The notes beneath the pieces are model-generated. The model was given only the letters and a program-made list of their open reading frames with translations, was not told the DNA's origin and made no database searches. Shown here piece after piece: positions 10,078-60,309 of a DNA stretch of 64,000 nt; position 1 is the stretch's first letter; each line of letters begins with the position of its first letter. This DNA is from Burkholderiaceae bacterium (GTDB lineage: Bacteria; Pseudomonadota; Gammaproteobacteria; Burkholderiales; Burkholderiaceae_C). Position numbers and translations under genes: made by a program. The stretch is from the NCBI GenBank assembly GCA_016790515.1, contig JAEUOY010000077.1, positions 58,928 through 122,927 on the forward strand. The letters run 5' to 3'.

Positions 10078-10079
10078 CG

Positions 10080-10337: not shown

Positions 10338-10349
10338 AGCCCTGGCCCG

Positions 10350-10369
10350 GCCGCCGATCAGTCGGCGGC
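10350..10369. terminator. Bidirectional hairpin between convergent genes
   Basis: Perfect 8-bp stem GCCGCCGA / TCGGCGGC with a TCAG loop, right after the acyl carrier protein stop and overlapping the stop codon of the opposing USP-like gene. Well placed to end both transcripts, though without a T-tract. Confidence 0.55.
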
Positions 10370-13464: not shown

Positions 13465-13551
13465 GGGCTCCAGGGGTCGGATCGGGCTGCTGCCAGGTCA
13501 GCCACCTTACGACCCAGTGTGCCGGCGCGCTTGTCCTGGCGCAATGCGCGA

Positions 13552-22623: not shown

Positions 22624-24813
22624 TCACATCATGCCGGCCAGCCGCAGCGCCAGCATGGTCCGGCGCTGCAGATGCAGTTCCTCGGGCCCGCTGGCGGTGG
22701 CCAGCTGCATGCGCTCGAGCATCGGCAGGATGCCGGCAGGGGGCTGCGCCGGCAGTTGCCGCGCCAGCGCGGCCAGTTCGGCGGGATCCTTCAGCGCGAC
22801 AGCCGACTTCAGGGCCTTCAGCGCCGCGGCCAGCGCCATCTCGACACGGCTGAACTCCGAGCCGAACGGGAAGGGCGGAAAGCTGCCATCGCGCTTGAAG
22901 CCCTCGAGCGCCTCGGTCAGGCGTTCGGGCGTGTTCCGGCGCCACGCGTCGGGGATGACGAAGCCCACCGGCAGCTTCTGGTGGCGCTTGGCCTCGGCCA
23001 GCAACTCGTCCTGGAAGCGCGAGTCGGTCACCGCGAGCATGGCCATGATCACCTCCTGATCGCTCTTGCCGCGCAGGTCGGCGATGCCGTATTCGGTGAC
23101 CACCAGGTCACGCAGGTGACGCGGGATCGTGACGTGGCCGTAGTTGTAGACGATGTTCGACAGCACCCGGTCGCCCTCGTGGCGGGTGCTCTTGACCATC
23201 ATCACCAGCCGGGCATCGGGCAGCGCATGGGCCATCGCCACGAAGTTGTACTGGCCGCCCACGCCCGAGACCACCCAGCCGTCGTCGTAGCCGTCGGACA
23301 CCAGGTTGCCGAGCAGCGTCGCCTTCATCGCGGTGTTGCAGAAGCGTCCGTCCTTGCGCTGCAGTGCGCGCAGGCGCTCCTCGCCGTACAGCTGGTTGGC
23401 CACCTCGACGCCGGTCATCTCGAACAGCCGGCGCTCCTGTTCCGGCATGTCGCGCAGCGTCTGGTAGAAGTCATTGGGGCCGATGAAGAAGCCACCGGTC
23501 AGCACCACGCCGTTCTTCAGCGCCGGTCCCAGGCAGCGCGCCAGGCGTTGGCGGTTCGCCGGGCGGTCGATCAGCGCGCTGAAGCGCTCGTCGCCATCGA
23601 CGATCTCGCCGTCCTCCCAGCGCAGGTGCTCGCGCAGCACGCCGTGGCGCTGCAGCGCCTCGAAGTCCTTGCGCGCCAGGTAGGGCGGGATCAGTTCCTG
23701 CTCGAGCAGGCGGTCGATCACGTCGGCCGGGATGTGCTCGTCCCGCACCACACCTTGGTTGACCAGCGCCTGGATGCCGGCGTGTTGGTAGACGCGGCGC
23801 TTGGTGATGCCGCTCTTGTAGAGCTGCAGGAAGCCGTCGACCAGCATCTCGGTCGAGCCGTAGAGGCCGCGCTGGAACGGCTCGGTGCCGCCCACCCGGT
23901 CGATCAGGGCACCATGGCGCGCGGCGATGCCGGTGGCATCGAGCACCTGGCGGTACTGCGCGTTGTCGAGGTGACGCAGCCGCAGCGCATAGGCCACCGC
24001 ATCGCCCAGTGCGCCGATGCCGATCTGCAGCGTGCCGCCGTCCTTGACCAGGGCGCTGGCGTGCAGCCCGATCAGGTAGTCGGCGTCGGCCACCGGCAGG
24101 CGTGGCGTGGAGAACAGCTTGTAGTCGCCCTCGGGCGTGTCGATCACGATGTCGTACATCGAGCCGTCGACCTCGGCATCGCCGTACATGAACGGCAGCT
24201 CGGGGTTGACCATCGCGATGCGCAGCCGCTTCTCGCCCTGCCGTTGATCTTCGGCGAAGCTGCGCAAGGTCTTCAGCGAGGTGTCGGCGTTGCAGCTGGC
24301 GCTGTAGTGAACGCCGCCGTCGGCCGTCTCGCGTCGCGCCACGATGTGGGCGAACACGGCGTTGCCGTTGATCGTGCAGTCGCGCACCACATGGGTGTAG
24401 TTGGAGCAGATGTGGTCGCGCTGCATCGCTGCTTCCTGGCGGTAGGCGCCGGCCTTGAAGAAGATCTCGTGCACGCGCACATTGGGCGGCAGGCCGCCGC
24501 GACGCAGGTCGCGCATGAACTCGAGGTCGGGCACGCCGGCCCAGACCCGCTCGACGAAGGGTTGCAGGAAGCGGCGCTCCAGTTCGCCGCCCCAGGTCGG
24601 CTTCTCCAGTGACAGCGCGGTGAAGATCGTCAGATGCAACGACGCGTCGGCCTTGACGCGGCGGTAGAGCGCATTGATCAGCGGCACCGGCTTGCCCAGC
24701 CCCAGCGGCATGCCGAAGCGGATGTCGCGGCCGAAGGCCTCGATGATGTGGTCGACGCATTCGTCAACGCTCAGGTGCAATGGCCTGCGGGCCGGTGCGG
24801 CGGTGATGCTCAC
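22624..24813 (-). CDS. Acetyl-CoA hydrolase/transferase family protein
   Basis: A 729-residue CoA-transferase-superfamily protein. The C-terminal half holds the family core: GSTEMLVDGF (with the Glu typical of the family), GVGGQYNFVAMA, STRHEGDRVLSNIV and VTEYGIADLRGKSDQE. The N-terminal part (1-about 200) is an extra region also found in long Burkholderiales members. It could move CoA between acyl groups or hydrolyse acyl-CoA. GTG 24813 is chosen: GGAG precedes it and it begins VSITAAPARR; the frame is open further upstream without a start of equal quality. It is the last gene of the nine-gene LIV-importer/lipid-storage operon, 47 bases after the lipase-like gene. Confidence 0.85.
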   Translation of the reverse strand: MSITAAPARRPLHLSVDECVDHIIEAFGRDIRFGMPLGLGKPVPLINALYRRVKADASLHLTIFTALSLEKPTWGGELERRFLQPFVERVWAGVPDLEFMRDLRRGGLPPNVRVHEIFFKAGAYRQEAAMQRDHICSNYTHVVRDCTINGNAVFAHIVARRETADGGVHYSASCNADTSLKTLRSFAEDQRQGEKRLRIAMVNPELPFMYGDAEVDGSMYDIVIDTPEGDYKLFSTPRLPVADADYLIGLHASALVKDGGTLQIGIGALGDAVAYALRLRHLDNAQYRQVLDATGIAARHGALIDRVGGTEPFQRGLYGSTEMLVDGFLQLYKSGITKRRVYQHAGIQALVNQGVVRDEHIPADVIDRLLEQELIPPYLARKDFEALQRHGVLREHLRWEDGEIVDGDERFSALIDRPANRQRLARCLGPALKNGVVLTGGFFIGPNDFYQTLRDMPEQERRLFEMTGVEVANQLYGEERLRALQRKDGRFCNTAMKATLLGNLVSDGYDDGWVVSGVGGQYNFVAMAHALPDARLVMMVKSTRHEGDRVLSNIVYNYGHVTIPRHLRDLVVTEYGIADLRGKSDQEVIMAMLAVTDSRFQDELLAEAKRHQKLPVGFVIPDAWRRNTPERLTEALEGFKRDGSFPPFPFGSEFSRVEMALAAALKALKSAVALKDPAELAALARQLPAQPPAGILPMLERMQLATASGPEELHLQRRTMLALRLAGMM

Positions 24814-24860
24814 GAGGGTCTCCTGCTGTGGGTCTGTCGAGGTTCGGGCGCGGCAGGGGG

Positions 24861-25667
24861 TCAGTCCGGATGGGGATGGTCGGCCGCGGGTTCGCCGAAC
24901 AGCCAGCCACGCCAGCCTTCGCGGGCGAACGGCACCCACGCGCCTTCGGCCTGCGCCAGCCGGTCGGCCACCGCCCACAGGGCCAGCGGGTTCAGCCCCA
25001 GGCCGAGATGGCTGGCCTCGACCTCGATGTTCTCGGCCAGCGTGCGGCGGCGTTCGACGCTGCAGTGCCACGACACCACGCCGTCGCTGCGGCTGTAGAT
25101 CGAGGTGGTGGGCACCGGTGGCGTTTCGCGCAGCGGCCGGTGCAGGTCGTCCGAGTTGATGCGATGGCCGCTGACGAATTCGTAGAGCCGCCAGGCATGG
25201 GTCTGGCGCGGGTGGCCGGTGAAGGGCGAGCCCAGCGTGATGACGCAGCGCACCTGATCGGGCAACTCCTTGGCCAGCTCGCGCGCCATGACGCCGCCCA
25301 GGCTCCAGCCCACCAGGCTGACCTTGCGCCGGCTGTCGCGTGCCAACTGCTGCAACTGGGTGCGCAGCCCGTCCATCACGCCAGGCCTGAAGCCCAGGTT
25401 CAGGCCCTGGTTCCAGCCGTGTGGTGACCAGCCACGGGCCTGCAGGAACTGGCGCATCAGCGCGGTGCTGGCGTCACCCGCGCTGAGGCCCGGCAGCACC
25501 AGCACCGCATGGCCGTCACCGCGCGGCGCGAGCGGCCACAGCGGCAGCAGCGACAGCGAGACGGCCGCCTCGAGCGGCGCCCGCAGTTCCAGCCAGCGCA
25601 GCAGCGCAGACGGTCCGCGGTGCTCGGTGTCGGCGGCCGCGGCAGCCTGGGCGGGGGCAGTGGACAT
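24861..25667 (-). CDS. Alpha/beta hydrolase (lipase/esterase-like)
   Basis: A 268-residue hydrolase. Nucleophile elbow GWSLGG (Ser about 122), a likely acid Asp in SRSDGVVSW and His in ASHLGLG complete a Ser-Asp-His triad. The N-terminal segment VLVLPGLSAGD is the usual first strand and oxyanion region. There is no signal peptide, so it acts inside the cell. AGGAG lies six bases before the ATG. Between a phasin and a CoA transferase gene, a role in mobilising stored wax ester, triacylglycerol or PHA is likely but inferred. Confidence 0.85.
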   Translation of the reverse strand: MSTAPAQAAAAADTEHRGPSALLRWLELRAPLEAAVSLSLLPLWPLAPRGDGHAVLVLPGLSAGDASTALMRQFLQARGWSPHGWNQGLNLGFRPGVMDGLRTQLQQLARDSRRKVSLVGWSLGGVMARELAKELPDQVRCVITLGSPFTGHPRQTHAWRLYEFVSGHRINSDDLHRPLRETPPVPTTSIYSRSDGVVSWHCSVERRRTLAENIEVEASHLGLGLNPLALWAVADRLAQAEGAWVPFAREGWRGWLFGEPAADHPHPD

Positions 25668-25753: not shown

Positions 25754-26290
25754 TCAGCGGGGCGGGCGCGCGGTGCGCCCGGCCGCCGCGCGGCGCCGCG
25801 ATGGCGGCTGCGCCTGTGGCGCGTCGTCGGCCACGGCCTCGGTGGCGACCTTGCCGGCGCCGGTCGTCAGGCCGATCTCCTGCAGGCGCTGCCCGGCGCG
25901 CTCGTTGAGCACGCCCAGCACCTGGCGATTCGACGCCACCGCCATCTCGGCCAGGTCGCGCAGGTCGGCCAGGGCCTCGCTGAAGGCCTGCTGCGAGCGC
26001 TTGGCGGATTGCCGGGCCTTGCTGGCCAGGTCGGGGGCTGCGATCACCTCGCGCGTGCCCGTCTGCCAGGCGTCGTAGGCGGCGCGCAGCAACTCCTGCT
26101 GGCGCTTGCCCAGGGCCTCCAGTGCCAGGTAGGCCTGGCGGTTGGCCTCGACCAGCGCCTCGATGTCCTTGCGTTGCCCGGCGACGAGCCTGCGTCCCAC
26201 CTCGGGCAGCTCGAGCTTGTCGATCAGCTTGCGCAGGTCGAGCGCGGGCGGGATCCTGCCCCAGGGGGCGGCGGTGGTCTTCTGGCTCAT
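25754..26290 (-). CDS. Phasin-like granule-associated protein
   Basis: A 178-residue soluble protein, nearly all helical with heptad-like stretches from 25 to 145 (LPEVGRRLVAGQRKDIEALVEANRQ; segments such as YLALEALGKRQQELLRAA and FSEALADLRDLAEMAV are phasin-like). The last 30 residues are basic, Pro/Arg/Ala-rich, as in PHA-granule phasins that bind DNA. AAAGG is six bases before ATG 26290; an ATG at 26296 overlapping the wax synthase stop would add Met-Thr. Directly following a wax ester synthase gene, it probably coats storage bodies. Confidence 0.8.
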   Translation of the reverse strand: MSQKTTAAPWGRIPPALDLRKLIDKLELPEVGRRLVAGQRKDIEALVEANRQAYLALEALGKRQQELLRAAYDAWQTGTREVIAAPDLASKARQSAKRSQQAFSEALADLRDLAEMAVASNRQVLGVLNERAGQRLQEIGLTTGAGKVATEAVADDAPQAQPPSRRRAAAGRTARPPR

Positions 26291-26292
26291 GG

Positions 26293-27822
26293 TCATCCTT
26301 TGACGGTGGTGGCGGGAACGGCGCTGGGGGCGACGCGCTTGCGCGGCGCGCGTTTGGCAGGGGCGATGGCGGCCTTTGCCGCCGCGCCCGACCCTGCGGT
26401 CACCGTGGGGGTGAACTTGCGCAGCACGGCGGCCTCGAGCTCGTCCAGCGCCGGCAGCAGCCGGTCGGCGAGTTCGGCCAGGTCGGGCACCGTGCGCCGG
26501 CACGCGACCAGGCCGAAGTCCAGCGCATCGCAGTAGCTCTCGACGGTGATGTTCAGCGACTGGCCGTGGTAGGGCATCGAGCAGGGCGACATCGTCAGCA
26601 ACCTGGCGCCGGCGATGTACAGCGGCACCGGCGGGCCGGGCACGTTGGAGATCGGCAGGTTGGCCAGCGGCGGCAGGCGGTCGGCCAGCCGGGCGCGCCG
26701 GTAGAGATCGACCACGCCGCGCATCACCGGCGCGGTGCCCATCAGCGACAGGTCGGGAACCAGCAGGTCGCGCATGTTCGCCAGCTGCTTCTTCTGGTCA
26801 CCGGTCGAGGCCCTGATCGCCGCCAGCCGCTTGACGGGATCGGCCACATCGGTGGCCAGGCTGCACAGGATCGCGGCGTTCTGGTTTGCGCTCTGGGTGT
26901 CGCCGGCCTCGCGCAGCGAGACCGGCACCATCGCCGTCAGCGTGCTCCTGGGCAACTCGCCATGGTCCTTCAGGTAGCCGCGCAGCACCGCCGAGCAGAC
27001 CGCCAGCACCACGTCGTTGAGCTTGACGTCGGCCAGCCTGGCGATGCGCTTGAAGCGCGCCAGCGGCAGCGAGCGCGCAGCGAACGCGCGCTGGCTGGAG
27101 ATTGCGACGTTGAACCGCGTGCGTGGCGGTCGCAGCGGCGGCAACTTCGGTCGGTCGAACTTCAGCGTGCCGGCATCGGGCAGCGCGATGCGCGACAGCG
27201 CCTTCAGAACGTCGGGCACGGCCTGCAGCGCGCGGATCTCGCGCCGCACCGCATGCTCGGCCAGGCCGCGCAGGACCGCCGGCACGCTGAGCGGGGCGTC
27301 GGCATGGGCGCGCTTCGGCGGCGCCGGCGCCAGCTGGCGCGGCACCGGGGTCGGGTCGTACATCGTCGTCATCAGGTGCTGGCTCGCACCGCCGTCCATC
27401 GCCGCGTGATGGATCTTGGTGTAGATCGCCAGCTGCCCGCTCTCCAGCCCCTGGATGACGTAGAACTCCCACAGCGGGCGGCTGCGGTCGAGGAAGTTGG
27501 AGTGCAGCCGGCCCACCAGCTCCTCGAGCTGGCTCGGACGGCCGGGCGAGGGCAGGGTCTGCTGGCGGATGTGGTAGTCGACGTCGACCGCGTCGTCCTC
27601 GGTCCAGTAGGGGTGGTCGATGTCGAAGGGCAGGGCCACCAGCTTGCGGTGCATCAGCGGGATCAGGTGCATGCGCGCGGCGATGTGGCGCTTGTAGTCG
27701 TCGTAGAAGTTGCCGCCGTAGTCAGGCGGCAGCTGCACCAGGCTGACGCCGCCCACATGCTGCGGCGTTTCCGGGGTTTCCAGGTACAGGAAGCCGGCGT
27801 CCTGTTCGCTGAGTTGTTCCAT
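26293..27822 (-). CDS. Wax ester synthase/acyl-CoA:diacylglycerol acyltransferase
   Basis: A 509-residue bifunctional WS/DGAT-type acyltransferase that joins acyl-CoA to a fatty alcohol or diacylglycerol, making storage lipid. Catalytic motif HHAAMDG (about 137-143) is present, with the family features PLWEFYVIQGL before it and NISNVPGP-type segment (LPISNVPGPP) later. The C-terminal 40 residues are basic and Ala-rich. Length is slightly above the usual 450-480. It starts 24 bases after livF and is followed at once by the phasin gene, so transport and storage genes share a transcript. Confidence 0.92.
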   Translation of the reverse strand: MEQLSEQDAGFLYLETPETPQHVGGVSLVQLPPDYGGNFYDDYKRHIAARMHLIPLMHRKLVALPFDIDHPYWTEDDAVDVDYHIRQQTLPSPGRPSQLEELVGRLHSNFLDRSRPLWEFYVIQGLESGQLAIYTKIHHAAMDGGASQHLMTTMYDPTPVPRQLAPAPPKRAHADAPLSVPAVLRGLAEHAVRREIRALQAVPDVLKALSRIALPDAGTLKFDRPKLPPLRPPRTRFNVAISSQRAFAARSLPLARFKRIARLADVKLNDVVLAVCSAVLRGYLKDHGELPRSTLTAMVPVSLREAGDTQSANQNAAILCSLATDVADPVKRLAAIRASTGDQKKQLANMRDLLVPDLSLMGTAPVMRGVVDLYRRARLADRLPPLANLPISNVPGPPVPLYIAGARLLTMSPCSMPYHGQSLNITVESYCDALDFGLVACRRTVPDLAELADRLLPALDELEAAVLRKFTPTVTAGSGAAAKAAIAPAKRAPRKRVAPSAVPATTVKG

Positions 27823-27846: not shown

Positions 27847-28542
27847 TCAGACACCCAGCCATTCCTGGCAGATGCCCGGGTCGGCCAGCAGCGCCTGCGG
27901 GGTGCTCTCGTGCAGGATGCGGCCGTGGCCCATCACCACCACCCGCTGCGAGATGCGCAGCGCGATGTCGAGCTTCTGTTCCACCAGCAGGATCGCCACG
28001 CCGCGGCGCGTGATCTCGGCCAGCAACTCGCCCACCCGCTCGACGATGCGCGGCGCCAGGCCCTCGGTGGGCTCGTCGATCATCACCAGCGCCGGGTCGC
28101 CCATCAGCGTGCGCGCCAGCGTCAGCATCTGCTGCTCGCCGCCGGACATCACGCCGGCCGGCTCGTCGGCACGCTCCGCGAGGATCGGGAACATCGCGTA
28201 GAAGTCGTCGATCGTCCAGCGCGGCCGCCCGCCGCCGCCCTTGGCGCCGAGCATCAGGTTCTCGCGCACCGTCAGGCGGGCGAAGATCTCGCGGTTCTCG
28301 GGCACGTAGCCCAGGCCCTGCCGGGCGATGTGGAAGGGTTTCATGCCCAGCAGTTCGCGCCCCTTGAAGCGCACCGTGCCGCTGGCCTGCACATGGCCCA
28401 TCAGCGCGCGCAGCGTGGTCGAGCGGCCCACGCCGTTGCGGCCGAGCAGGCTGACGATCTCGCCTTCGCCGACCTGCAGGTCCACACCGTGCAGGATGTG
28501 GCTCTTGCCGTACCAGGCGTTCAGGCCGCGCACCTCAAGCAT
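27847..28542 (-). CDS. livF: LIV-type ABC importer ATPase LivF
   Basis: A 231-residue ATPase of a LIV-type importer. Signature MSGGEQQML, Walker B LVMIDEPTEGL and the H-loop region LLVEQ are canonical, but Walker A reads GRNGVGRST: the invariant Lys is Arg (codon CGC on the coding strand). Some LivF-like proteins may share this variant; if catalysis is reduced, the pump would rely on LivG (whose P-loop is intact). It overlaps livG by eight bases and precedes the wax ester synthase gene. Confidence 0.92.
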   Translation of the reverse strand: MLEVRGLNAWYGKSHILHGVDLQVGEGEIVSLLGRNGVGRSTTLRALMGHVQASGTVRFKGRELLGMKPFHIARQGLGYVPENREIFARLTVRENLMLGAKGGGGRPRWTIDDFYAMFPILAERADEPAGVMSGGEQQMLTLARTLMGDPALVMIDEPTEGLAPRIVERVGELLAEITRRGVAILLVEQKLDIALRISQRVVVMGHGRILHESTPQALLADPGICQEWLGV

Positions 28543-29314
28543 GGACGGCTCCTGCTCGATCAGCGCCGGCGTGGCCCAGATAGGCCTCCTGGACCTGGGT
28601 GTTGGCGCGGATCGATGCCGGATCGCCGGTGGCGACCAGCGCGCCGTGCACCAGCACCGAGATCCGGTCGGCCAGGTCGAAGACCACGTGCATGTCGTGC
28701 TCCACCATCATCAGCGTTCGCCCGGCGCTGACCTTGCGGATCAGCTCGACCGCGCGCTCGGTCTCCGAGCGGCTCATGCCGGCGGTGGGTTCGTCCAGCA
28801 GGATCACCTCGGCGCCGCCGGCCACCGTCAGCCCGATCTCCAGTGCGCGCTGCTCGGCGTAGGACAGTGCGCCGGCCGGCACGTCGGCGCGCGTGGCCAG
28901 GCCGATGTCGGTGATGAGTTCGCGCGCGCGGTCGTTGACATCGTGCAGGCGCGAAAAGCGGCGCCAGAACGCATGGCCGTGGCCGCCGGCCCACAGCAGC
29001 GCGCAGGCCAGGTTGTCGAAGGCCGACAGGCGCGGGAACAGGTTGGTGATCTGGAAGCTGCGCGCCAGGCCGAGGCGGCAGACCTGGTGCGGCGCCAGCC
29101 CCGAGATGCGCCGTCCGTGCAGCAGCACCTCGCCGCCCGACAGCGGCGTGCGGGCCGAGATCAGGTTGAACAGCGTGGACTTGCCGGCACCGTTGGGGCC
29201 GATCAAGGCATGGCGCTCGCCGCGCTGCACCGACAGGTCGACGCCGCGGATGATCTCGGTGCGGCCGAAGCGCTTGGCCACGCCGCGCAGTTCCAGCACG
29301 GTCTGCCCGTTCAT
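28535..29314 (-). CDS. livG: LIV-type ABC importer ATPase LivG
   Basis: A 259-residue ATPase. Walker A GPNGAGKST (about 39-47), signature LSYAEQRALEIG (the LivG-type variant of LSGGQ), Walker B VILLDEPTAGM and EHDMHVVF are visible. It overlaps livM by four bases and livF by eight. Together with LivF it powers the importer whose other parts are LivH, LivM and the binding protein upstream. Confidence 0.93.
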   Translation of the reverse strand: MNGQTVLELRGVAKRFGRTEIIRGVDLSVQRGERHALIGPNGAGKSTLFNLISARTPLSGGEVLLHGRRISGLAPHQVCRLGLARSFQITNLFPRLSAFDNLACALLWAGGHGHAFWRRFSRLHDVNDRARELITDIGLATRADVPAGALSYAEQRALEIGLTVAGGAEVILLDEPTAGMSRSETERAVELIRKVSAGRTLMMVEHDMHVVFDLADRISVLVHGALVATGDPASIRANTQVQEAYLGHAGADRAGAVHA

Positions 29315-30606
29315 GACGCTGCCTTCTCCGATGCGCGGCGCGCCAGCGCGAGCGCCGCCAGTTCGGTGCCCAGCGCCGAGGCGGCGTCGCCGGTTCGCGT
29401 CACGCCCGAGCGCATCAGCACGACGCCGGCAGCCAGCAGCGCCGTGGCCAGCAGCCAGGGCAGGGGGCCGCTGGCGTCGAGCGTCAGGCCGCCCAGCACC
29501 CAGGGCTGGTGGTCGCCGCCGCCGAAGCGCCGGTAGGCGCTCTCGACGCCGAACATCGCTGCCCCCACCAGCAGCAGCGCGGCCAGCGCGATGCGCCCGT
29601 ACGGCGCGGCCAGCCGACGCAGCCAGTGCGGATGGCGCCGCTGCGGCCGGGTGACGACCACCAGGCTGGCAAAGCCGCCCGGAACGTAGACCACCATCGC
29701 CAGGAACAGCAGGCCGAAGTAGAACGGCCAGGCCGGCGTGACGGTGGAGACCACGCTCTGCAGCAGCACCACGATCAGCGCGCCGATGATCGGCCCGAAG
29801 AACACGCCCGCGCCGCCGATGAACACCATCAGCAGCACGACGCCCGAGGCATGCGCGCCGACCGACTCGATGGTGACGATCTCGTCGGCCAGCGCGCCCA
29901 GCCCGCCGGCGATGCCGGCGAAGAAGCCGGCCATCACCAGCAACTGGTAGCGCAGGCGGTGGGTGCTGTAGCCGATGAAGGCCACACGCTCGGGGTTGTC
30001 ACGCACCGCGTTGGCCATGCGGCCGAACGGCGTGCGGGTGATGCCGAACATCGCCGCGGCACAGAGCAGGGTCCACGTCGCCACCAGGCCGTAGGTCTGG
30101 CGCGTCGAGCCGAAGTCGATGCCCAGCCAGGGTTGGCCGGTGACGCGGTTGGCGTTGACGCCGGCCTCGCCGCCGAAGAAGGCCGGCAGCATCAGCACGC
30201 AGGCGGCCACCAGTTCGGCGATGCCCAGCGAGATCATCGCGAAGGTGGTGCCGGCGCGGCGCGTGCTGACCCAGCCCAGCAGCAGTGCAAAGCCCAGGCC
30301 CGCCACCCCGCCGACCACCGGCAGCAGGCTCACCGGCAGCCAGATCGCGCCCTGGTTGAGGCTGCGCAGCGCATGGATCGTGAAGTAGGCGCCGAGGCCG
30401 GAGTACACCGCATGGCCGAAGCTCAGCATGCCTCCCTGGCCGAGCAGCATGTTGTAGGACAGTGCGAAGACGATCGCGATGCAGGCCTTGGTGGCCACCG
30501 AGAGCGCGAAGTCGCTGTGTGCGATCCAGGGCAGCGCTGCCAGCACCAGGGCGAAGGTTCCCCAGGGCAGGGCCGGGTGCTGCAGCAGGGGGCGGGTCGG
30601 GTTCAT
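29311..30606 (-). CDS. livM: LIV-type ABC importer permease LivM
   Basis: A 431-residue inner-membrane permease. The LivM core with about ten hydrophobic segments covers residues 15-320 and includes the loop RTPFGRMANAVRDNPERVAFIGY and GGAGVFFGPIIGA. An extra C-terminal region of about 100 residues carries two more hydrophobic segments (about 330-350 and 378-396), longer than usual LivM proteins. It starts one base after the livH stop codon. Confidence 0.92.
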   Translation of the reverse strand: MNPTRPLLQHPALPWGTFALVLAALPWIAHSDFALSVATKACIAIVFALSYNMLLGQGGMLSFGHAVYSGLGAYFTIHALRSLNQGAIWLPVSLLPVVGGVAGLGFALLLGWVSTRRAGTTFAMISLGIAELVAACVLMLPAFFGGEAGVNANRVTGQPWLGIDFGSTRQTYGLVATWTLLCAAAMFGITRTPFGRMANAVRDNPERVAFIGYSTHRLRYQLLVMAGFFAGIAGGLGALADEIVTIESVGAHASGVVLLMVFIGGAGVFFGPIIGALIVVLLQSVVSTVTPAWPFYFGLLFLAMVVYVPGGFASLVVVTRPQRRHPHWLRRLAAPYGRIALAALLLVGAAMFGVESAYRRFGGGDHQPWVLGGLTLDASGPLPWLLATALLAAGVVLMRSGVTRTGDAASALGTELAALALARRASEKAAS

Positions 30607-30607
30607 G

Positions 30608-31543
30608 TCAGTCTTCCCGCGTGCCCATCAGCCCGCGCGGGCGGACGATCAGCATCAGCACCATCAGCAGATAGGGCAGGATCGGCGCCATCTGGGACAG
30701 CTTCAGGCCCGCCACCTGGCGCTGCACCGAACCCGGCGCGCCCGGGCCCAGCAGCGCCAGCGGCTGGAACTCCGAGGCTACCGAGAAGGTCTGCAGCACG
30801 CCGATCAGGATCGAGGCGATGAATGCCCCGCCCAGCGAGCCGAGCCCGCCGACGACCACGATCACGAACACGATGCTGCCCACCCCCGCGGCCATCGACG
30901 GCTCGGTGACGAAGGCATTGCCGCCGATCACGCCGGCCAGGCCGGCCAGTGCGCAGCCACCGCCGAAGACCCCCATGAAGACCCGCGGCACGTCGTGGCC
31001 GAGCGACTCCACCATCTCGGGGTTGCCGAGCGCGGCACGGATGATCTGGCCGATGCGGGTGCGCGCCAGCAACAGCCACACCGCCAGCATCATCGCCGCC
31101 GACACCGCGATCATGAAGCCGCGGTAGGCGGGGAAGGCCGTGTCGTAGAGCGTGAACAGCGTGCCCGACATCGCCGCCGGCACCGGGTAGTCCACCGGAT
31201 TGCGGCCCCAGGCCAGGTGCACGAACTCCTCGATCAGGAAGGCCAGGCCGAAGGTGAACAGCAGCTCGGCCACGTGGCCGTGGCGGTGCACCCGGCGCAG
31301 GCCGAAGCGCTCGACGCCGGCGCCCAGCAGGCCGGCCAGCAGGGGCACCACCGCCAGCGCGATCCAGAAGCCGAGGCGCGCATCGATGCTGTAGGCCAGG
31401 TAGGCGCCCAGCATGTAGAAGCTGGCATGGGCGAAGTTCAGCACGCCCATCATGCCGAAGATCAGCGTCAGGCCGGCCGACAGCATGAACAGCAGCATGC
31501 TGTAGGCCAGGCCGTTCAGCAGCGAGACGGCGAGGAACTCCAT
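30608..31543 (-). CDS. livH: LIV-type ABC importer permease LivH
   Basis: A 311-residue inner-membrane permease with about eight hydrophobic segments. LivH signatures are visible: NGLAYSMLLFMLSAGLTLIF at the start (residues 10-29), GVLNFAHASFYMLGAY, and the cytoplasmic loop TRIGQIIRAALGNPEMVESLG. It follows the binding-protein gene by 54 bases and precedes livM by one. Confidence 0.93.
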   Translation of the reverse strand: MEFLAVSLLNGLAYSMLLFMLSAGLTLIFGMMGVLNFAHASFYMLGAYLAYSIDARLGFWIALAVVPLLAGLLGAGVERFGLRRVHRHGHVAELLFTFGLAFLIEEFVHLAWGRNPVDYPVPAAMSGTLFTLYDTAFPAYRGFMIAVSAAMMLAVWLLLARTRIGQIIRAALGNPEMVESLGHDVPRVFMGVFGGGCALAGLAGVIGGNAFVTEPSMAAGVGSIVFVIVVVGGLGSLGGAFIASILIGVLQTFSVASEFQPLALLGPGAPGSVQRQVAGLKLSQMAPILPYLLMVLMLIVRPRGLMGTRED

Positions 31544-31597: not shown

Positions 31598-32845
31598 TCA
31601 GCCGGCGGGGCGGACCAGCTTGCAGCTGGTGGGCAGGGTGATGTCCTTGGCCGGGATCACCACCGCATTGCCGAAGCCGAAGCCGCTGCCCTCCAGCCCG
31701 AGTCGGACGCCGGGCGCGCCTTCCTTGGCGAAGGTGGGGATGTACATCGGCAGCAGCAGTTGATGGTCGTCGGCACGCATCGTCACCTCACCCAGGTCGC
31801 CGGCGAACTTCATGCCTTCCAGCGCCTGTGCCAGCTTGGCTGGATCGGTGCTCTTGCTGCGCTCGATCGCCTGGCCCAGCAGGCCCACCATCAGCTTCAT
31901 GCGGTAGTAGTAGAACTCGTCGGGGGCGGCGGGGTGGCGCTGCTTGTAGGCGGCATTGAACGCGTCCATCTTCGCGTTGGGCAGATTCGGGCTCCACTCG
32001 ACCACCACCTTCACCTGGCCGATGCCGGCTTCGCCGATGGCCGCCGCCGAGCCGTAGGCACCGGCGTAATAGGTGTACCAGTTGACGTCGAACCTGGCGT
32101 CCTTGGCGGCGCGCACCAGCAGCGTGAGGTCGGCGCCCCAATCACCGCTGATCACGGTGTCGGCACCGGCCGCGCGCATCTTGGCGATGTACGGGGAGAA
32201 GTCCTTCACGCGACCGAAGGGGTGCAGGTCCTCGCCGACGATCTGGATGTCGGGCCGCTTGGCCGCCAGCATTTCCTTGGCGGCGCGCGTGACCTGGTGG
32301 CCGAAGGCGTAGTCCTGGTTGATCAGGTAGACCTTCTTGACGCTCCTGTCCTGGCGGATGGCATCGGTGATGGCCGCCATCTTCATGTCGCTGTTCGCGT
32401 CGAAGCGGAAGTGCCAGTAGTTGCACTTGTCGTTGGTCAGGTCGGGATCGACCGCACCGAAGTTCAGGAACAGCACCCGCTTGTCCGGGCTGCGCTGGTT
32501 GTGCTTGTCGATGGCCTCGATCAGCGCACCGGCCACTGCCGAGCTGTTGCCCTGGGTGACGATCTGGATGCCCTGGTCGATGGCCAGCTTCAGCGCAGCC
32601 AGCGCCTCCTGCGGGCTGCCCTTGCTGTCGAAGCGAACGACCTCGAACTTGCGCCCGAGTGCGCCGCCCCTGGCGTTGGCGTCGTCGACGATGAACTGCA
32701 GGTTCTTGCCCGACAGCTCGCCGACATTGCCCATGGTGCCCGAAAGCACCTCGATGAAGGCGACCTTGATCGGCTGCGCCCAGGCGGACACGCTGCCGAG
32801 GACGCACCACAGGCCGACCAGGCCCCAGCCCAAGCACTTGTTCAT
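31598..32845 (-). CDS. LIV-type ABC importer substrate-binding protein
   Basis: A 415-residue periplasmic binding protein (Peripla_BP_6/LivK-like). The signal peptide is clear (1-22, MNKCLGWGLVGLW...SAWAQ). The mature protein starts PIKVAFIEVLSG and has typical segments such as VTQGNSSAVAGAL and VYLINQDYAFGHQ. The ligand is unknown: these proteins bind branched-chain amino acids, amides, urea or small aromatic and aliphatic acids. It is the first gene of the nine-gene operon; a palindrome shared with the HMGR/luxR promoter lies about 155 bases upstream. Confidence 0.9.
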   Translation of the reverse strand: MNKCLGWGLVGLWCVLGSVSAWAQPIKVAFIEVLSGTMGNVGELSGKNLQFIVDDANARGGALGRKFEVVRFDSKGSPQEALAALKLAIDQGIQIVTQGNSSAVAGALIEAIDKHNQRSPDKRVLFLNFGAVDPDLTNDKCNYWHFRFDANSDMKMAAITDAIRQDRSVKKVYLINQDYAFGHQVTRAAKEMLAAKRPDIQIVGEDLHPFGRVKDFSPYIAKMRAAGADTVISGDWGADLTLLVRAAKDARFDVNWYTYYAGAYGSAAAIGEAGIGQVKVVVEWSPNLPNAKMDAFNAAYKQRHPAAPDEFYYYRMKLMVGLLGQAIERSKSTDPAKLAQALEGMKFAGDLGEVTMRADDHQLLLPMYIPTFAKEGAPGVRLGLEGSGFGFGNAVVIPAKDITLPTSCKLVRPAG

Positions 32846-33000
32846 CTTCAGTCTCCGTTTCGGGGGATGGGCGGGACACCTGGCCGGCGCTGCCCTGTTC
32901 CCCTCGGGTTGCATCGCATCGATCTGGCGGCTGCCGAGTGGCCCTGGAGCCGTCGCGGCCGTTCGAGGTCACTGTGCGGCCAAGCCTGCCGACGATTGAT

Positions 33001-33014
33001 CCCCCGCATGGGGG
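33001..33014. promoter_or_regulatory. Shared palindrome, copy 1 (upstream of the importer/storage operon)
   Basis: CCCCCGCATGGGGG, with identical flanks AT and AC (18 identical bases with copy 2). It lies in the 199-base gap between the HMG-CoA reductase stop (33045) and the binding-protein start (32845), about 155 bases upstream of the operon. As the only copies seen are here and beside the LuxR gene, it is a candidate binding site for that regulator. Confidence 0.6.
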
Positions 33015-33044
33015 ACGCCGCTGCCTTGCGACGGGGGGCGCCGA

Positions 33045-34238
33045 TCAGGGCCGGTTGCGTCCGAGCCGGTCGTGGCTGCTGACCCAGTCGCCGTGGATCA
33101 CCGCACTGGACAGCGAGATCTCGCCGGCCAGCGCCAGCCCGGCGCAGATCTCGGCGAACTTGTCGGCCTGCCCGCTGCCATAGCAGCCCAGCAGTTCCAG
33201 GCATTCGCGCTGCGTGGCCAGGCCGGTGCCGCCACCGTAGGTGCCGACGATCAGCGACGGCAGCGTGATCGACCAGTAGTAGTCGCCATTGGCCAGCAAC
33301 TGGTTGTAGACGATCCCGGCATGCGACTCGGCGATGTTGGCCACATCCTGTCCGCAGGCGATGAACAGCGCGGTCAGGCCGTTGGCCGCATGCGAGCCGT
33401 TGTTGGCCGATCCGGCCAGGAACGCGCCGACGTTGGACACCTGGCGCAAGGCGAAGGCTTCGGCGCTGTCCACGCCCATCAGGCGCTCGAGCACCTCCTT
33501 GCGCACCACGGCCTCGGCCACCACGCGCTTGCCCCGCGTGACGAGCATGTTCAGCTGCGAGTGCTTCTTGTCGGTGTCCATGTTGCCCGACAGCAGGAAC
33601 CTCGCGCCGCCCGGGTGGTTCGCTGCGATCCACTCGCAGGCCGCCAGCGTGGCCTTGCCGGTCATGTTCTGGCCGGCAGCGTCCCCGGTGGTGTAGTTGA
33701 AGCGCAGGTGGCGCATCGGCCCGATCGGGTACTGGTAGATGTTGACCAGCCGGCCGACATGCGTGGTGGCCTCGGCAGCCGCCTTGATCGCCTCGAAGTG
33801 GTGTTCGACCCAACGGCCGAACTCGCGCGCCGCCAGCGCGTCGTCGAACAGGAAGGCCGGCGAGCGCTGCATGTACTGCTCGACCACGGTGGTCTTGACG
33901 CCGCCGCATTCGGCCAGCAGCCGCATGCCGCGGTTGTAGCTGGCCACCAGCGTGCCCTCGGTGGTGGCCATCGGCACGTAGAAGTCGCCCTGCGCGCGCT
34001 CGCCCACCAGGTGCAGCGGGCCGGCCAGTCCGATCGGCACCTGGGCCACGCCAACGAAGTTCTCGATGTTGCCCGGCAGGGTGGCCGGATCCAGCGAGTA
34101 GTGGCTCAGGTGCCGCAGCGCGCCGCCGGTGTGCTGGCGCAGGAAGTTGCGCCGGCGCTCGGCCATCTCGGGTGTGTAGTCGTTGGCGGCGTCACGCGGC
34201 ACCTTGTCATGGGCGGGGTCGGACGGGTGGTTGGTCAT
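33045..34238 (-). CDS. Hydroxymethylglutaryl-CoA reductase, class I
   Basis: A 397-residue enzyme interconverting HMG-CoA and mevalonate with NAD(P)H. It matches class I (eukaryote/archaeal type), not the class II enzymes usual in bacteria: Glu94 in MATTEGTL, NYTTGDAAGQNM (181-192), Lys224 in TDKKH, Asp298 in ACGQDVAN, GGGTGLATQ (335-343) and a C-terminal His389 in SSHDRLG correspond to the class I catalytic residues. There is no membrane domain. TGGAGG precedes ATG 34238. No other mevalonate-pathway gene is in the window, so it could act in mevalonate use or synthesis. It is divergent from the LuxR regulator. Confidence 0.93.
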   Translation of the reverse strand: MTNHPSDPAHDKVPRDAANDYTPEMAERRRNFLRQHTGGALRHLSHYSLDPATLPGNIENFVGVAQVPIGLAGPLHLVGERAQGDFYVPMATTEGTLVASYNRGMRLLAECGGVKTTVVEQYMQRSPAFLFDDALAAREFGRWVEHHFEAIKAAAEATTHVGRLVNIYQYPIGPMRHLRFNYTTGDAAGQNMTGKATLAACEWIAANHPGGARFLLSGNMDTDKKHSQLNMLVTRGKRVVAEAVVRKEVLERLMGVDSAEAFALRQVSNVGAFLAGSANNGSHAANGLTALFIACGQDVANIAESHAGIVYNQLLANGDYYWSITLPSLIVGTYGGGTGLATQRECLELLGCYGSGQADKFAEICAGLALAGEISLSSAVIHGDWVSSHDRLGRNRP

Positions 34239-34462
34239 GGTGGCCTCCAGTTCCAGTCTGCGGCGACGCGCGAGGGGCCCGCGGCGGCGGTGTTTGTCAT
34301 GAGGCGAGCCGGGGCGGTTCCGGCCTAGCATTCGCCGTGGCCCACCGACTGCTCGACCTCGACAGGCATCCACCGCGACGGCGGCGCGCGACCGGCCCGG
34401 CCGGCCGGCAGTCGCGGCGATCGATGCGCGTCACTGTCGGCCCCGCCGCGCCGGTTGTTCAT

Positions 34463-34476
34463 CCCCCGCATGGGGG
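34463..34476. promoter_or_regulatory. Shared palindrome, copy 2 (HMGR/luxR divergent region)
   Basis: CCCCCGCATGGGGG with the same AT/AC flanks as copy 1. It lies in the 283-base divergent gap, 225 bases upstream of the HMG-CoA reductase start and immediately before the LuxR coding region. Its right arm (GGGGGA) is also just ahead of an in-frame ATG (34480), so the site may overlap the regulator's own translation start region. Confidence 0.6.
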
Positions 34477-34521
34477 ACCATGGCGCGGCGCTGCGCCGGT
34501 GCGGGCCGGGATGGTGGAGCG

Positions 34522-37239
34522 GTGAAGCTAGGCGACGATCTCGGACTGCTGAGCCGGACGCGGCCGCCGCAGCCGGCCCGCGGCGTGATCGCCCGGCCTC
34601 GGCTGCAAGCCCAGTGCGATTTGGTGCGCAACCGGCTGCTGACCCTGGTGACCGCGCCACCGGGCTACGGCAAGACCAGCGTCGCCCTGGGCTGGTGCCA
34701 CGCGCTGGCCGGTGACGGGGCCTGTGTCGCCTGGTTGCGGCTGGGCCCCGACGACAACCATGCCGAGCGCTTTCTCGGCGTGCTGGCCGTCGCGCTGCGC
34801 CGGGCCTGCGGCAGCGAGGACAGGTTCGACATGCCCTGGGCGCCGGGCGATCTGTCGATCCCGGCGCCGCAGCGGCTCGAATGGCTGCTCGAGCTGGTCG
34901 CCAGCCAGGGCCGGACGGTGGTCCTGTTCATCGACAACGCCCATGAACTGCAGAGCGCCGCGCCGCTGCACGCGCTGTCGACCCTGCTGAGCTTCGCGCC
35001 CGAGGAGTTTCACCTGGTGCTGATCGGGCGCGCTGAGCTCGCGCTGCCGCTGGCTTCGCTGCGGGCGCAGGACGCCGTGCTCGACGTTCCGGCCGAGGCG
35101 CTGCGATTCGATCTGGTCGAGACCGAGCAGCTGCTGCGCAAGAGCCGCAGCGCCGCGGTGGACACCGAGCAGGCGGCGCAGCTTCAGGCCTATACCGGCG
35201 GCTGGATCGCCGCGATGCGCGCCGCCCTGCTGACCTGGCAGGTGGCGCCGGGCCCTGGCCTGCAGGGCACGCCGGGGCTTCCCGGCATTGGTACGGGCAC
35301 GCCGCTGAAGTCGGTGCAGGCGCTGTTCAACGAGCTGCTGCAGCAACTGCCGGCGGCGACGCTGGAGTTCATCGAACAGCTCAGCATCGCCGATCGCATG
35401 TGTCCGGCGCTGGCTGTCCACCTGACCGGCCGTGCCGAGGCGTCCGAGCTGCTGGACGCGCTCGAGCGCCAGCAGCTGTTCATCACGCCGCTGGACGACG
35501 AAGGCTGGACCGAGTTCCATCCGCTGTTCCGCGACTTCGTGCGACGCCGGGCGCAGGGGCGCGACGCGCCGCGCCGGGTCGCGCTGCATCGCGCTGCGGC
35601 GGCCTGGTTCGCCGAGCGCTCGCTGTGGGCCGACGCGATCGAGCATGCGCTGGCCGGTGCCGACAACGCCCAGGCGCTGGCCTGGATCGAGCAGCAGGCG
35701 ATGACCCTGGTGGGTGCCGGCGACCTGCTCACGCTGCTGGCCTGGGAGCGCCAGCTGCGGGCGCACCTGGTGCAGAGTCCGCGCCGCCTGCGCCTGGCCT
35801 TTGCCTGGAGCCTGAGCCTGGCCATGGCCTGTGACCGGGCACTGGCGCTGCTCGACGGCGTGGAGGCCGAACTCGACACCGACCCGGTCGACGCCGCTGC
35901 GGCGCCGTGGCGCGACGAATGCCTGGCGCTGCGTGCCGTACTGGTGGCCAACACCGGCGACAATGAGTTCGCCGCCGAGATCGCTGCGCGGGTCCGCGGC
36001 GGCGCCGGCCAGCCGCCCTGGGTGGCCAACGCGGTGCGCAACGTGGTCGCCGCGGCGCACCTGCATGCCGGGCGCTGGCGCCATCTCTACGGAACTGCGC
36101 CGCTGGTCGGTGTCGCGCGCACCGGGGCCCGGCCCGGGGATCCGATGTCGATCGACTACCGGCTGTCGATCCATGGCCTGGCCGAGTTTCGCCAGGGCCA
36201 CCTCGACGACGCCTCGATGCAGCTCGAGCAGGCGATGGCGATGGCCCGACGTGCCGAGCGCGGGCCGCAGAGCAGGGTGCTGGCCGCGCTGCCGGCGCCC
36301 ACCCTGGCGATGGTGCGCTACGAGCAGGATCGCGTCGCCGAGGCGGCGCGCATCAATGCCGAGCACTTCGACGTCAATCGGCGGGTGGGACCGATCGAGG
36401 GCCTCTACTTCGCCTACCTGTTGGCCGCGCGTGCCGCGCGGTTGGATGGCCAGGCGGTGCGCGCCCGTTACCTGCTCGACGAGGGTGAGTGCATCGCGGC
36501 GGCCCGCGGCTGGCGGCGTGCCGTCGTGGCGCTGCGCCTGGAGCGCCTGCGCATGTGCCTGCTCGATGGCCGGATCGCCGAAGGCGGCGCCGCGGTCGAC
36601 GGCATCGCCGCGATGGCGCATCCCGGCCCCGGGCGGCCGGCACTGGAATGCCGTGACTTTGCGCAGGCGGCCGACGTGGCCCGCGGCTGGCATGCGCTGG
36701 TCGACGGCAGGGCGGAGATGGCCATCGAACCGCTCGTCCGGTCGCGCGACAGCGCCGCGGCCAGCGGCCGCCAGCTCGACGTGATCCTGCTCGACACCTC
36801 GCTGGCGCTGGCGCACCACGCCAGCGGCGCGAAGCCGGCGGCCCTCGAGCACTTGCTGCTGGCCTGCCGTGCGGCGCTGGCCGTGGGTGCGCTGCGCTCG
36901 ATGGTCGACCAGCCGGCGCCTCTGCAGCCGCTGCTGCAGCTCTGGCTGGCGCGGCGCCGCGAGCTGGCGCCCGACGAGGCGCTCGATGCGCTGGTGCAGC
37001 GGTTGCTGAACGCTGCCGGCGCCGGCACGGCACGGCGCGGCGCGGCCTCGCTGATAGAGACCTTGTCGCCGCGCGAACTGCACATCCTCAAGCTGGTGGC
37101 CGACGGCCAGTCGAACAAGGAGATAGCCCGCGGCCTGGGCATCGCGCCCGAGACGGTCAAGACCCACGTCAGCAAGGTCTTCGGCAAGCTCGGTGCCAGC
37201 AACCGCGCGCAGGCCGCGGCAATGATTGCCAACGGTTGA
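34522..37239 (+). CDS. MalT-like (LAL) LuxR-family transcriptional activator
   Basis: A 905-residue ATP-binding regulator. Residues near 40-48 form a P-loop (TAPPGYGKTS), followed by a STAND/AAA-like NTPase region (VLFIDNAHEL as Walker B, about 130-140), a long helical tetratricopeptide-type middle region, and a C-terminal LuxR helix-turn-helix (about 838-905: LSPRELHILKLVADGQSNKEIA, spread over 22 residues, and TVKTHVSKVFGKLG). Such proteins are activated by a small ligand with ATP. GTG 34522 fits the family N-terminus (LLSRTRPPQPARGVIARPRL), though its Shine-Dalgarno spacing is short; ATG 34480 is the alternative (919 residues). It is divergent from HMG-CoA reductase and probably controls it and the importer/storage operon. 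Confidence 0.9.
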   Translation: MKLGDDLGLLSRTRPPQPARGVIARPRLQAQCDLVRNRLLTLVTAPPGYGKTSVALGWCHALAGDGACVAWLRLGPDDNHAERFLGVLAVALRRACGSEDRFDMPWAPGDLSIPAPQRLEWLLELVASQGRTVVLFIDNAHELQSAAPLHALSTLLSFAPEEFHLVLIGRAELALPLASLRAQDAVLDVPAEALRFDLVETEQLLRKSRSAAVDTEQAAQLQAYTGGWIAAMRAALLTWQVAPGPGLQGTPGLPGIGTGTPLKSVQALFNELLQQLPAATLEFIEQLSIADRMCPALAVHLTGRAEASELLDALERQQLFITPLDDEGWTEFHPLFRDFVRRRAQGRDAPRRVALHRAAAAWFAERSLWADAIEHALAGADNAQALAWIEQQAMTLVGAGDLLTLLAWERQLRAHLVQSPRRLRLAFAWSLSLAMACDRALALLDGVEAELDTDPVDAAAAPWRDECLALRAVLVANTGDNEFAAEIAARVRGGAGQPPWVANAVRNVVAAAHLHAGRWRHLYGTAPLVGVARTGARPGDPMSIDYRLSIHGLAEFRQGHLDDASMQLEQAMAMARRAERGPQSRVLAALPAPTLAMVRYEQDRVAEAARINAEHFDVNRRVGPIEGLYFAYLLAARAARLDGQAVRARYLLDEGECIAAARGWRRAVVALRLERLRMCLLDGRIAEGGAAVDGIAAMAHPGPGRPALECRDFAQAADVARGWHALVDGRAEMAIEPLVRSRDSAAASGRQLDVILLDTSLALAHHASGAKPAALEHLLLACRAALAVGALRSMVDQPAPLQPLLQLWLARRRELAPDEALDALVQRLLNAAGAGTARRGAASLIETLSPRELHILKLVADGQSNKEIARGLGIAPETVKTHVSKVFGKLGASNRAQAAAMIANG

Positions 37240-37366: not shown

Positions 37367-37951
37367 ATGCCATCCCACCGCCGCAGCGCCGCCCCCGACG
37401 CTGAAGCCGCCGCCGAAGGCTCGGTGCGGATCCTGAAGAAATACCCGAACCGCCGTCTCTACGACACCCGCACCAGCAGCTACATCACCTTGTCCGACGT
37501 CAAGCAGATGGTGCTCGACGGCGAGTCCTTCGAGGTCCGCGACGCCAAGACCGGCGACGAGCTGACGCGCAGCATCCTGCTGCAGATCATCCTGGAAGAA
37601 GAGACCGGCGGCATGCCGATGTTCACCACCCAGATGCTGGCGCAGGTGATCCGGTTCTACGGCCACGCGATGCAGGGCCTGATGGGCTCGTACCTCGAGA
37701 ACAACCTGCAGGCCTTCGTCGACCTGCAGACCCGCATCGCCGAGCAGGCCAAGGGCCTGTACGACCCGAAGGCCTTCACCCCCGAGACCTGGGCCCAGCT
37801 GATGACCGGCCAGGCGCCGCTGATGCAGGGGCTGATGGGCGGCTACCTCGAGCAGAGCCAGAAGGCCTTCGCGCAGATGCAGGAGAAGATGAAGGAGCAG
37901 CTCGAGAGCGGGGTGCTGTTCCCGATCCCGGGGCTGGGGCCGAAGAAGTAG
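37367..37951 (+). CDS. phaR: Polyhydroxyalkanoate synthesis repressor PhaR
   Basis: A 194-residue DNA- and PHB-binding repressor of phasin and PHB genes. The PHB/PHA accumulation DNA-binding domain is clear at about 20-80 (RILKKYPNRRLYDTRTSSYI), followed by the PHB_acc domain with LEEETGGMPMF and a C-terminal helix rich in Met and Gln. GGAG lies nine bases before ATG 37367. Usually phaR is with phaC/A/B; here it is alone, between the LuxR gene and a hydrolase gene, yet near the phasin operon it may help control. Confidence 0.95.
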   Translation: MPSHRRSAAPDAEAAAEGSVRILKKYPNRRLYDTRTSSYITLSDVKQMVLDGESFEVRDAKTGDELTRSILLQIILEEETGGMPMFTTQMLAQVIRFYGHAMQGLMGSYLENNLQAFVDLQTRIAEQAKGLYDPKAFTPETWAQLMTGQAPLMQGLMGGYLEQSQKAFAQMQEKMKEQLESGVLFPIPGLGPKK

Positions 37952-49477: not shown

Positions 49478-50143
49478 TCAACGTCGCCGGCACGCGGCCA
49501 TCAACAGGTCCACCGCAGCATGCGTCTGCGCGTCGATCTGCTGGCGCGGCATCGGCTGACCGAGCACGGCCCGCAGACGCGGCACCGAAGCGCTCATCTC
49601 GATGAACAGCGTGGCCGCCAGCCGCACATCGCCCAGTCCGGGCAGGTGGCCCGCGTCGCGCAGTCCGATCAAGACCTTGCTCACGGCATCGATGGCGCGC
49701 TCGTAGATGTCGGCGAACAGACGAGCCAGCACGGGCACGTGCGCGGCCTCGGCCAGGATCAGTCGGTTCAGACCCGCCACTGGGGCCGATGACGACAGGC
49801 TGGCCAGCTCTCGTGCCAGCGCCAGCAGCGATGCCCGCGGATCCTGCTTCGACGGGCCGGCTGCCGTCGTTGGGTCCGGCCCCAGCGAACCGACGAGCAG
49901 TCGATCGACCACCGCGGCCAGCACCTCGGCCTTGTTGGCATAGCGGGCATACAGCGTCTTGCGTGAAACGCCGGCGGCGCGCGAGATGGTGTCCATCGAT
50001 GCGCGGGCGTAGCCGTGCTCCGTGAACACCAGGAGCGCTGCATCCAGAAGTCGTCGAGGCAAGGCAGCCGCCTCGGCTGCGGATGGGCGGCCCTGGGTGC
50101 GGCGGGTTGGCCGCACGGCGGTCTGCGATGCCGGATCGGACAT
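49478..50143 (-). CDS. TetR family transcriptional regulator
   Basis: A 221-residue repressor. The N-terminal helix-turn-helix lies at about 28-75 (LLDAALLVFTEHGYARASMDTI and SRAAGVSRKTLYARYANKAEVL in consecutive short pieces). The C-terminal ligand-binding domain is all helical. It is divergent from a serine hydrolase gene; the 148-base gap has a strong-looking promoter and a 16-bp palindrome that is probably its operator. Confidence 0.92.
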   Translation of the reverse strand: MSDPASQTAVRPTRRTQGRPSAAEAAALPRRLLDAALLVFTEHGYARASMDTISRAAGVSRKTLYARYANKAEVLAAVVDRLLVGSLGPDPTTAAGPSKQDPRASLLALARELASLSSSAPVAGLNRLILAEAAHVPVLARLFADIYERAIDAVSKVLIGLRDAGHLPGLGDVRLAATLFIEMSASVPRLRAVLGQPMPRQQIDAQTHAAVDLLMAACRRR

Positions 50144-60261: not shown

Positions 60262-60309
60262 CCGACCGAATCCGACCGACCGAATCCGACCGACCGAATC
60301 CGACCGACC
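60260..60309. repeat. 14-bp tandem repeat in the rimO-cystathionine lyase gap
   Basis: Three full copies and one 8-base partial copy of GACCGACCGAATCC, filling the whole space between the rimO stop codon (60259-60261, which it overlaps) and the ATG at 60310. It leaves no Shine-Dalgarno sequence in front of the downstream gene. Confidence 0.95.

Follow-up and report, generated by a model that had tools for sequence, protein, structure and literature searches.

A Rare 18-nt Repeat in Two Promoter Gaps as a Candidate Operator of the MalT-Like LuxR Regulator Beside an HMG-CoA Reductase Gene and an Import-and-Storage Operon

Gene Content of the Locus

The window considered here, the whole 64,000-nucleotide stretch of DNA analyzed from a Burkholderiaceae bacterium, contains a gene for an HMG-CoA reductase (33045..34238, minus strand) whose product matches PF00368 over residues 26-394 with 402.4 bits, against a cut-off of 27. 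The nearest models for this enzyme are those of the NADPH (class I) type: it scores 316.8 bits with TIGR00533 (NADPH type), which is below the cut-off of 441.8 yet the best model, and 27.5 bits with TIGR00532 (degradative, class II), below the cut-off of 259.95. Also on the minus strand lies an operon that begins with the substrate-binding protein of a LIV-type (branched-chain-amino-acid-type) importer (31598..32845) and continues with profile matches to a LivH-like permease (30608..31543), a LivM-like permease (29311..30606), a LivG-like ATPase (28535..29314), and a LivF-like ATPase (27847..28542). These are followed, on the same strand, by a wax ester synthase/diacylglycerol acyltransferase (WS/DGAT; 26293..27822, above the TIGR02946 cut-off), a phasin (25754..26503, PF09361), an alpha/beta hydrolase recognized in the Pfam scan (24861..25667), and a protein with an acetyl-CoA hydrolase/transferase C-terminal domain (22624..24858, PF13336), whose gene is provisionally counted in the operon from its order and strand.

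Divergent from the reductase gene, a MalT-like LuxR regulator (LAL) of 919 aa is encoded on the plus strand (34480..37239), though its start is uncertain, as an in-frame GTG is present at 34522. Residues 33-414 of the LAL align to a solved MalT chain (8bob) with an E-value of 9.3e-34, and its N-terminal P-loop ATPase is recognized by PF13401 above the cut-off, with APPGYGKTS present in the translation. At the C-terminus, residues 861-915 form a LuxR-type HTH (PF00196, 71.1 bits against 23.5), while the Pfam scan reported no family for the part between the ATPase and the HTH. Identification of the protein as MalT itself was considered and rejected, given a score of 253.5 bits against an NCBIfam equivalog cut-off of 537. 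Directly downstream of the LAL gene is that of PhaR, a PHB accumulation regulator (37367..37951, plus strand) that is a possible rival or partner regulator for the cluster. A Pfam scan of 28 open frames of the window found three DNA-binding domains, namely those of the LuxR protein, PhaR, and a TetR protein (49478-50143). The arrangement of reductase, importer operon, and LAL is as the initial annotation described it; the neighborhood is wider than it had recorded, as it includes the PhaR gene along with the WS/DGAT, the phasin, and two hydrolases. Elsewhere in the window, about three copies of a 14-bp unit (GACCGACCGAATCC) are repeated in tandem at 60260-60308.

The Repeat and Its Rarity

The gap between the reductase stop codon and the first importer gene and the divergent gap between the reductase and LAL genes each contain the identical 18-nt block ATCCCCCGCATGGGGGAC, at 32999-33016 (site 1) and 34461-34478 (site 2), respectively, neither of which is assigned a strand. 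Within it lies a 14-nt core, CCCCCGCATGGGGG, found at 33001-33014 and 34463-34476, and the shared block grows to TTNATCCCCCGCATGGGGGAC if one mismatch is tolerated. The core of site 1 lies 30 nt beyond the reductase stop codon and 155 nt upstream of the first ATG of the importer, while that of site 2 lies 224 nt upstream of the reductase ATG, 3 nt upstream of the listed LAL ATG, and 45 nt upstream of the alternative GTG. The block was originally described as an 18-bp palindrome, a wording that holds for the length of the identical block (18 nt) and is loose for the symmetry, since the dyad proper, TCCCCC-GCAT-GGGGGA, extends over just 16 bp, with 6-bp arms and a 4-bp spacer. No sigma-70-type promoter and no terminator-like site was found in the two gaps.

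Exactly two copies of the repeat had been reported, at 33001 and 34463, and this proved correct on a larger scale: the core is present at both positions and nowhere else in the source assembly (5,005,045 bases, 82% complete). The looser pattern C5-N4-G5 has 17 forward matches in the assembly, corresponding to 15 distinct places as two pairs overlap, and the GCAT spacer occurs among these 17 at sites 1 and 2 only. In the window, there are no further copies of the core with one or two mismatches and 16 with three; the resulting 18 matches compare with 32 expected from shuffles, so that loose matches are not enriched, and it is the exact repeat that carries the signal. Between the two gaps, which measure 199 and 283 bp, the longest stretch shared exactly is 18 nt, compared with 8 to 12 in 150 dinucleotide-shuffled pairs. 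Both the copy number and this comparison uphold the view that one rare sequence marks the two promoter gaps, and the many unrelated copies genome-wide that were named as evidence against it are not seen, with two copies in the assembly and three occurrences of the 14-mer in 99 other genomes. No LAL or HMG-CoA reductase was recognized by eye in the open frames up to 1.5 kb from those three occurrences.

A duplication without function, whether it arose from a mobile palindromic repeat or by local copying, is a highly improbable source of the two sites. In its favor, elsewhere in the assembly several C5-N4-G5 places resemble, in the analyst's reading, a palindromic repeat family with GCGCC/GGCGC arms, and the 14-mer stands alone in 3 of the 99 other relatives. 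Sites 1 and 2, however, lack the flanks of that family, their identity stops at the edge of the block, and each occupies a promoter-sized gap of the same cluster, while a dispersed repeat would be expected in many genome copies, and the exact core has two. As an observation in its own right, G/C-run palindromes with GCGCC/GGCGC arms at six inspected loci look by eye like a dispersed repeat family of this genome. A third place matching ATCCCCC-N4-GGGGGA (C153) lies beside an apparent MerR/acyl-CoA dehydrogenase gene pair, and a link to leucine breakdown was considered for it. That link was dropped, since the corresponding region of relatives contains a distinct TTTACGTAAA-type box, along with different palindromes close to what may be a small RNA. 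Near the MerR/acyl-CoA dehydrogenase pair, TTGACGT..ACGTCAA boxes were seen at four loci, and in some of these relatives a G/C-run palindrome is followed by the terminator-like hairpin of what may be a small RNA, for which Rfam gave no match above threshold.

DNA Element or RNA Hairpin

The repeats might alternatively act as RNA, through hairpins that mask a ribosome-binding site, terminate transcription, or shield an RNA end. Read as RNA, site 2 is part of a strong 46-nt stem that encloses the listed ATG (-30.2 kcal/mol, z -3.38, with none of 200 shuffles as good), and the minus strand of site 1 folds as well (-18.5, z -1.43). A hairpin at site 2 is thus a live rival with real support at that position. 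When 96 nt around site 2 are folded, on the other hand, the result is no better than shuffles (z 0.29), and neither a terminator-like site nor an Rfam family above threshold accompanies the repeats. Moreover, transcription toward the LAL and toward the importer would read the copies on opposite strands and hence give different RNAs, and a hairpin has no need of an identical spacer and identical flanks. The opposite reading strands and the identity of spacer and flanks favor DNA over RNA, and as a general account of both copies the RNA reading is very unlikely. An identical GCAT spacer with identical flanks is instead what is expected of a protein-binding site.

Resemblance to the MalT Box

Each palindrome arm, GGGGGA, resembles the start of the MalT box, which is published as GGGGA(T/G)GAGG in the excerpt of the source consulted (PMC7567727). 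Across both strands of the window, GGGGGA occurs six times, and five of these six lie within the 482 bp of the two gaps, where 0.05 would be expected; the five comprise the four palindrome arms and one extra half-site. Apart from the palindromes, one of the two remaining occurrences lies in the gaps, compared with about 0.015 expected. This possible half-site, GGGGGAT (32862..32868, plus strand), is located 16 nt upstream of the first ATG of the importer and sits in a degenerate copy of the 18-mer (four mismatches, minus strand, from 32851), though the window has three further places with an equally good match to the 18-mer, which makes it weak. The two gaps contain no full MalT box, the best matches having two mismatches. 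Three such matches were found compared with 0.8 expected, one of them unrelated to the repeats. Of the four arms, a single one has the box core GGA(T/G)GA (34459, minus strand); there, the minus strand of site 2 reads GGGGGATGAAC and contains GGATGA. This hexamer is found at 22 places in the window, a frequency at which 0.17 would be expected in the gaps, and one of them is in site 2.

PhaR as a Possible Rival Binding Protein

It has also to be considered that the two copies are operators of another regulator, either PhaR or a protein encoded elsewhere, in which case the cluster would be run by storage state or by a global signal. The position of the phaR gene directly downstream of the LAL gene speaks for PhaR, as do the absence of any further PF07879 match from the assembly and its single copy in 34 of 40 relatives. 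The operon moreover contains a phasin, described as a classic PhaR target in the portions of the literature consulted (PMC3206438, PMC12542648), and a TetR gene at 49478-50143 adds a further candidate regulator. PhaR sites, according to the same excerpts, are TGC-N3-GCA dyads, and one such core at 32910 in the importer promoter gap could be a PhaR site, with about 0.3 cores of this kind expected there by chance. The palindromes themselves lack the TGC-N3-GCA signature, however, and neither CTGC-N3/4-GCAG nor TG-N-TGC-N3-GCAA is present in the two gaps. A global regulator should likewise have more copies than the two of the GCAT core in the assembly. Taken together, binding by PhaR or a distant protein is an unlikely explanation of the repeat, ranked second after binding by the LAL.

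The LAL and the Reductase Cluster in Related Genomes

A search of 32 genomes, 30 of them reached through their reductase loci in addition to G018 and G062, returned one likely orthologue of the window LAL, a G607 protein whose sensor part is identical at 219 of 437 positions and its HTH at 47 of 64. The G607 genome, which was examined because of its reductase, also has that enzyme at 78%, though the two genes are not adjacent and an IclR gene lies beside the reductase. The G607 contig ends before the LAL promoter, leaving the exact site out of reach of footprinting through this orthologue. In a sample of 200 genomes of the family (at most four candidates scored in each), the best other LAL match is 34% identical, and no other match at E 1e-70 was found in a sample of 399 genomes of the order (two candidates scored where listed). 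Among the ten matches listed for plasmid records, LALs are 30 to 33% identical, and the neighborhoods of two of these showed no reductase.

For the reductase, 80 loci, 51 of which span 21 kb or more, were kept from 165 relatives. It was suggested at the outset that related genomes keeping the genes and lacking the palindrome would count against the proposed regulon. Taken literally this is what is seen, as C5-N4-G5 is absent from all 80 loci (1.46 Mb searched), but none of them carries a LAL at E 1e-10 near the reductase, and the absence of the palindrome there consequently does not decide the matter. The gene set around the reductase recurs without the LAL: a WS/DGAT is found at 6 of the 80 loci, and within 7 kb of the reductase, families clustered by BLAST include the hydrolase at five loci, the phasin at four, and an AMP-forming ligase at eight. 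One locus (L031) brings together the importer, hydrolase, WS/DGAT, phasin, and reductase, in a record that begins inside the importer, placing its promoter beyond the edge. In a Bradyrhizobium locus, an MFS transporter adjoins the reductase in place of the importer, and G018, a second species of the genus, has consecutive genes for the phasin, the hydrolase, an acetyl-CoA hydrolase-like protein, and the reductase. At seven inspected loci, a WS/DGAT, a phasin-like protein, a hydrolase, and an AMP-forming ligase recur in varying combinations; the records with the recurring reductase set are named as several phyla, and their transporter varies between LIV and MFS types.

Contig 44 of G018 contains, at about 7688-13714, a class II HMG-CoA reductase (above the TIGR00532 cut-off) immediately followed by a complete LIV-type importer, which is likely a mevalonate importer. 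The proximity of this degradative reductase to a LIV importer provides a precedent for the pairing of reductase and importer.

A Second LAL with a Related Promoter Element

The genome encodes a second LAL on contig 176, and the promoter of this gene contains CCCCC-GGCG-GGGGG. The surrounding 16-nt block, CCCCCGGCGGGGGGGC, is identical at 16 of 16 positions in the G018 orthologue and is the longest identical block of the promoter gap between the two species, while the rest of that gap is identical at 52 of 125 positions (with borders chosen by the analyst) and includes a second identical stretch of 11 nt near CCCCCGGCGGGGGGGC. Across six orthologues of this type, an exact C5-N4-G5 is present in two, a G7 run with a weakened left (C) arm in two others (G016 and G053), and no recognizable element in the remaining two (G015 and G003). 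Inspection of nine LAL promoters of the genus found C5-N4-G5 in the two contig-176-type orthologues only. In other genomes of the family, it was absent within 500 bp upstream of each of 29 LAL genes, and the element is therefore not a general LAL mark.

The HTH of the contig-176 LAL is identical to that of the window LAL at only 22 of 56 positions, and its promoter element may belong instead to the divergent gene, which the analyst reads as universal-stress-type. Judged from its conservation, the palindrome would provide an independent line of support for the LAL as the binding protein in the window. The divergent gap that precedes the contig-176 LAL, like the one preceding its orthologue in G018, also has a conserved TCATGCTAGGC alongside the conserved C5-N4-G5.

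A Proposed Two-Site Switch

On the strength of the sequence evidence, both 18-bp copies are probably operators of one factor, for which the adjacent LAL is the foremost candidate. The MalT-box-like arms, the concentration of GGGGGA in the gaps, and the palindrome of the contig-176 LAL make it the best candidate binder, and the original suggestion that the LuxR protein binds the repeats accordingly points to a good candidate, as far as sequence can indicate. In such a mechanism, the sensor domain of the LAL would bind a ligand linked to the pathway, and the liganded protein would assemble with ATP, as MalT does. It would then bind GGGGGA-type arms in the gap between the LAL and HMG-CoA reductase genes and ahead of the importer operon, such that regulator, reductase, and import-and-storage genes would change together. 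We infer in this model the binding by the LAL, the sign of its effect, the autoregulation, and the ligand.

From the gene families, our guess is that the pathway takes up, degrades, and stores mevalonate or some other compound linked to HMG-CoA. A fuller version, in which the ligand sensed by the MalT-like regulator is mevalonate, HMG-CoA, or a related isoprenoid acid and the regulator works as an autoregulated two-site switch over import, conversion by the class I-like reductase, and wax-ester/PHB-type storage, is speculative and in this specific form decidedly unlikely. Were it true, this mevalonate-to-storage route with its own sensor would be an undescribed one. If the two-site operator reading itself holds, the repeat would be one of few predicted LAL operators outside the maltose and antibiotic systems. 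A bacterial HMG-CoA reductase of class I-like type would then be linked with import and storage rather than with isoprenoid synthesis, and the locus would offer a small two-promoter switch open to testing. In the open-access library searched, no paper was found that joins HMG-CoA reductase, wax ester synthase, and phasin, nor one that joins mevalonate, catabolism, LuxR, HMG-CoA reductase, and Pseudomonas.

Comparison with Known Systems

The PAS-LuxR regulator PimM has the operator CTVGGGAWWTCCCBAG, which resembles the present element in being a 16-bp dyad of G/C runs bound by a LuxR-type HTH, although its runs are in the opposite order (GGGA..TCCC) and PimM is a small PAS regulator. The PhaR/PhbF regulon of PHB storage shares with this locus a phasin in the operon and, through the phaR gene next door, its regulator, but the TGC-N3-GCA dyads given for it in the excerpted literature are absent from the palindromes here.

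Closer in protein type is the LAL SCO6993 of Streptomyces coelicolor, for which the excerpt of its report describes footprints on palindromic sites, including two in the regulator's own promoter (PMC9628970). A LAL acting on palindromic sites that include its own promoter would match the arrangement proposed here, while the excerpt indicates different site sequences, a length of 606 aa, and antibiotic regulators as targets. The MalT-like activator of Actinoplanes sp. SE50/110 has the palindromic site TCATCC-N5-GGATGA, again according to an excerpt (PMC7567727). It, too, combines a MalT-like LuxR protein with a palindrome, and site 2 here begins with TCATCC; by comparison with the excerpted site, the arms here are 5 bp further apart and the right one is GGACCA or GGACGC. 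The Actinoplanes regulon is also described there as large, compared with two site copies here.

With respect to MalT of Escherichia coli and Klebsiella, the boxes at this locus are inverted around a 4-bp spacer rather than arranged as direct repeats and include no complete MalT box, the cluster is without maltose genes, and the LAL is not a MalT orthologue. What the two systems share, as far as the excerpts of the MalT literature extend, is a large P-loop LuxR protein, G-rich boxes starting with GGGGA, and an ABC importer that is controlled in the MalT regulon, and would be controlled here, together with catabolic genes (PMC7567727, PMC4381067).
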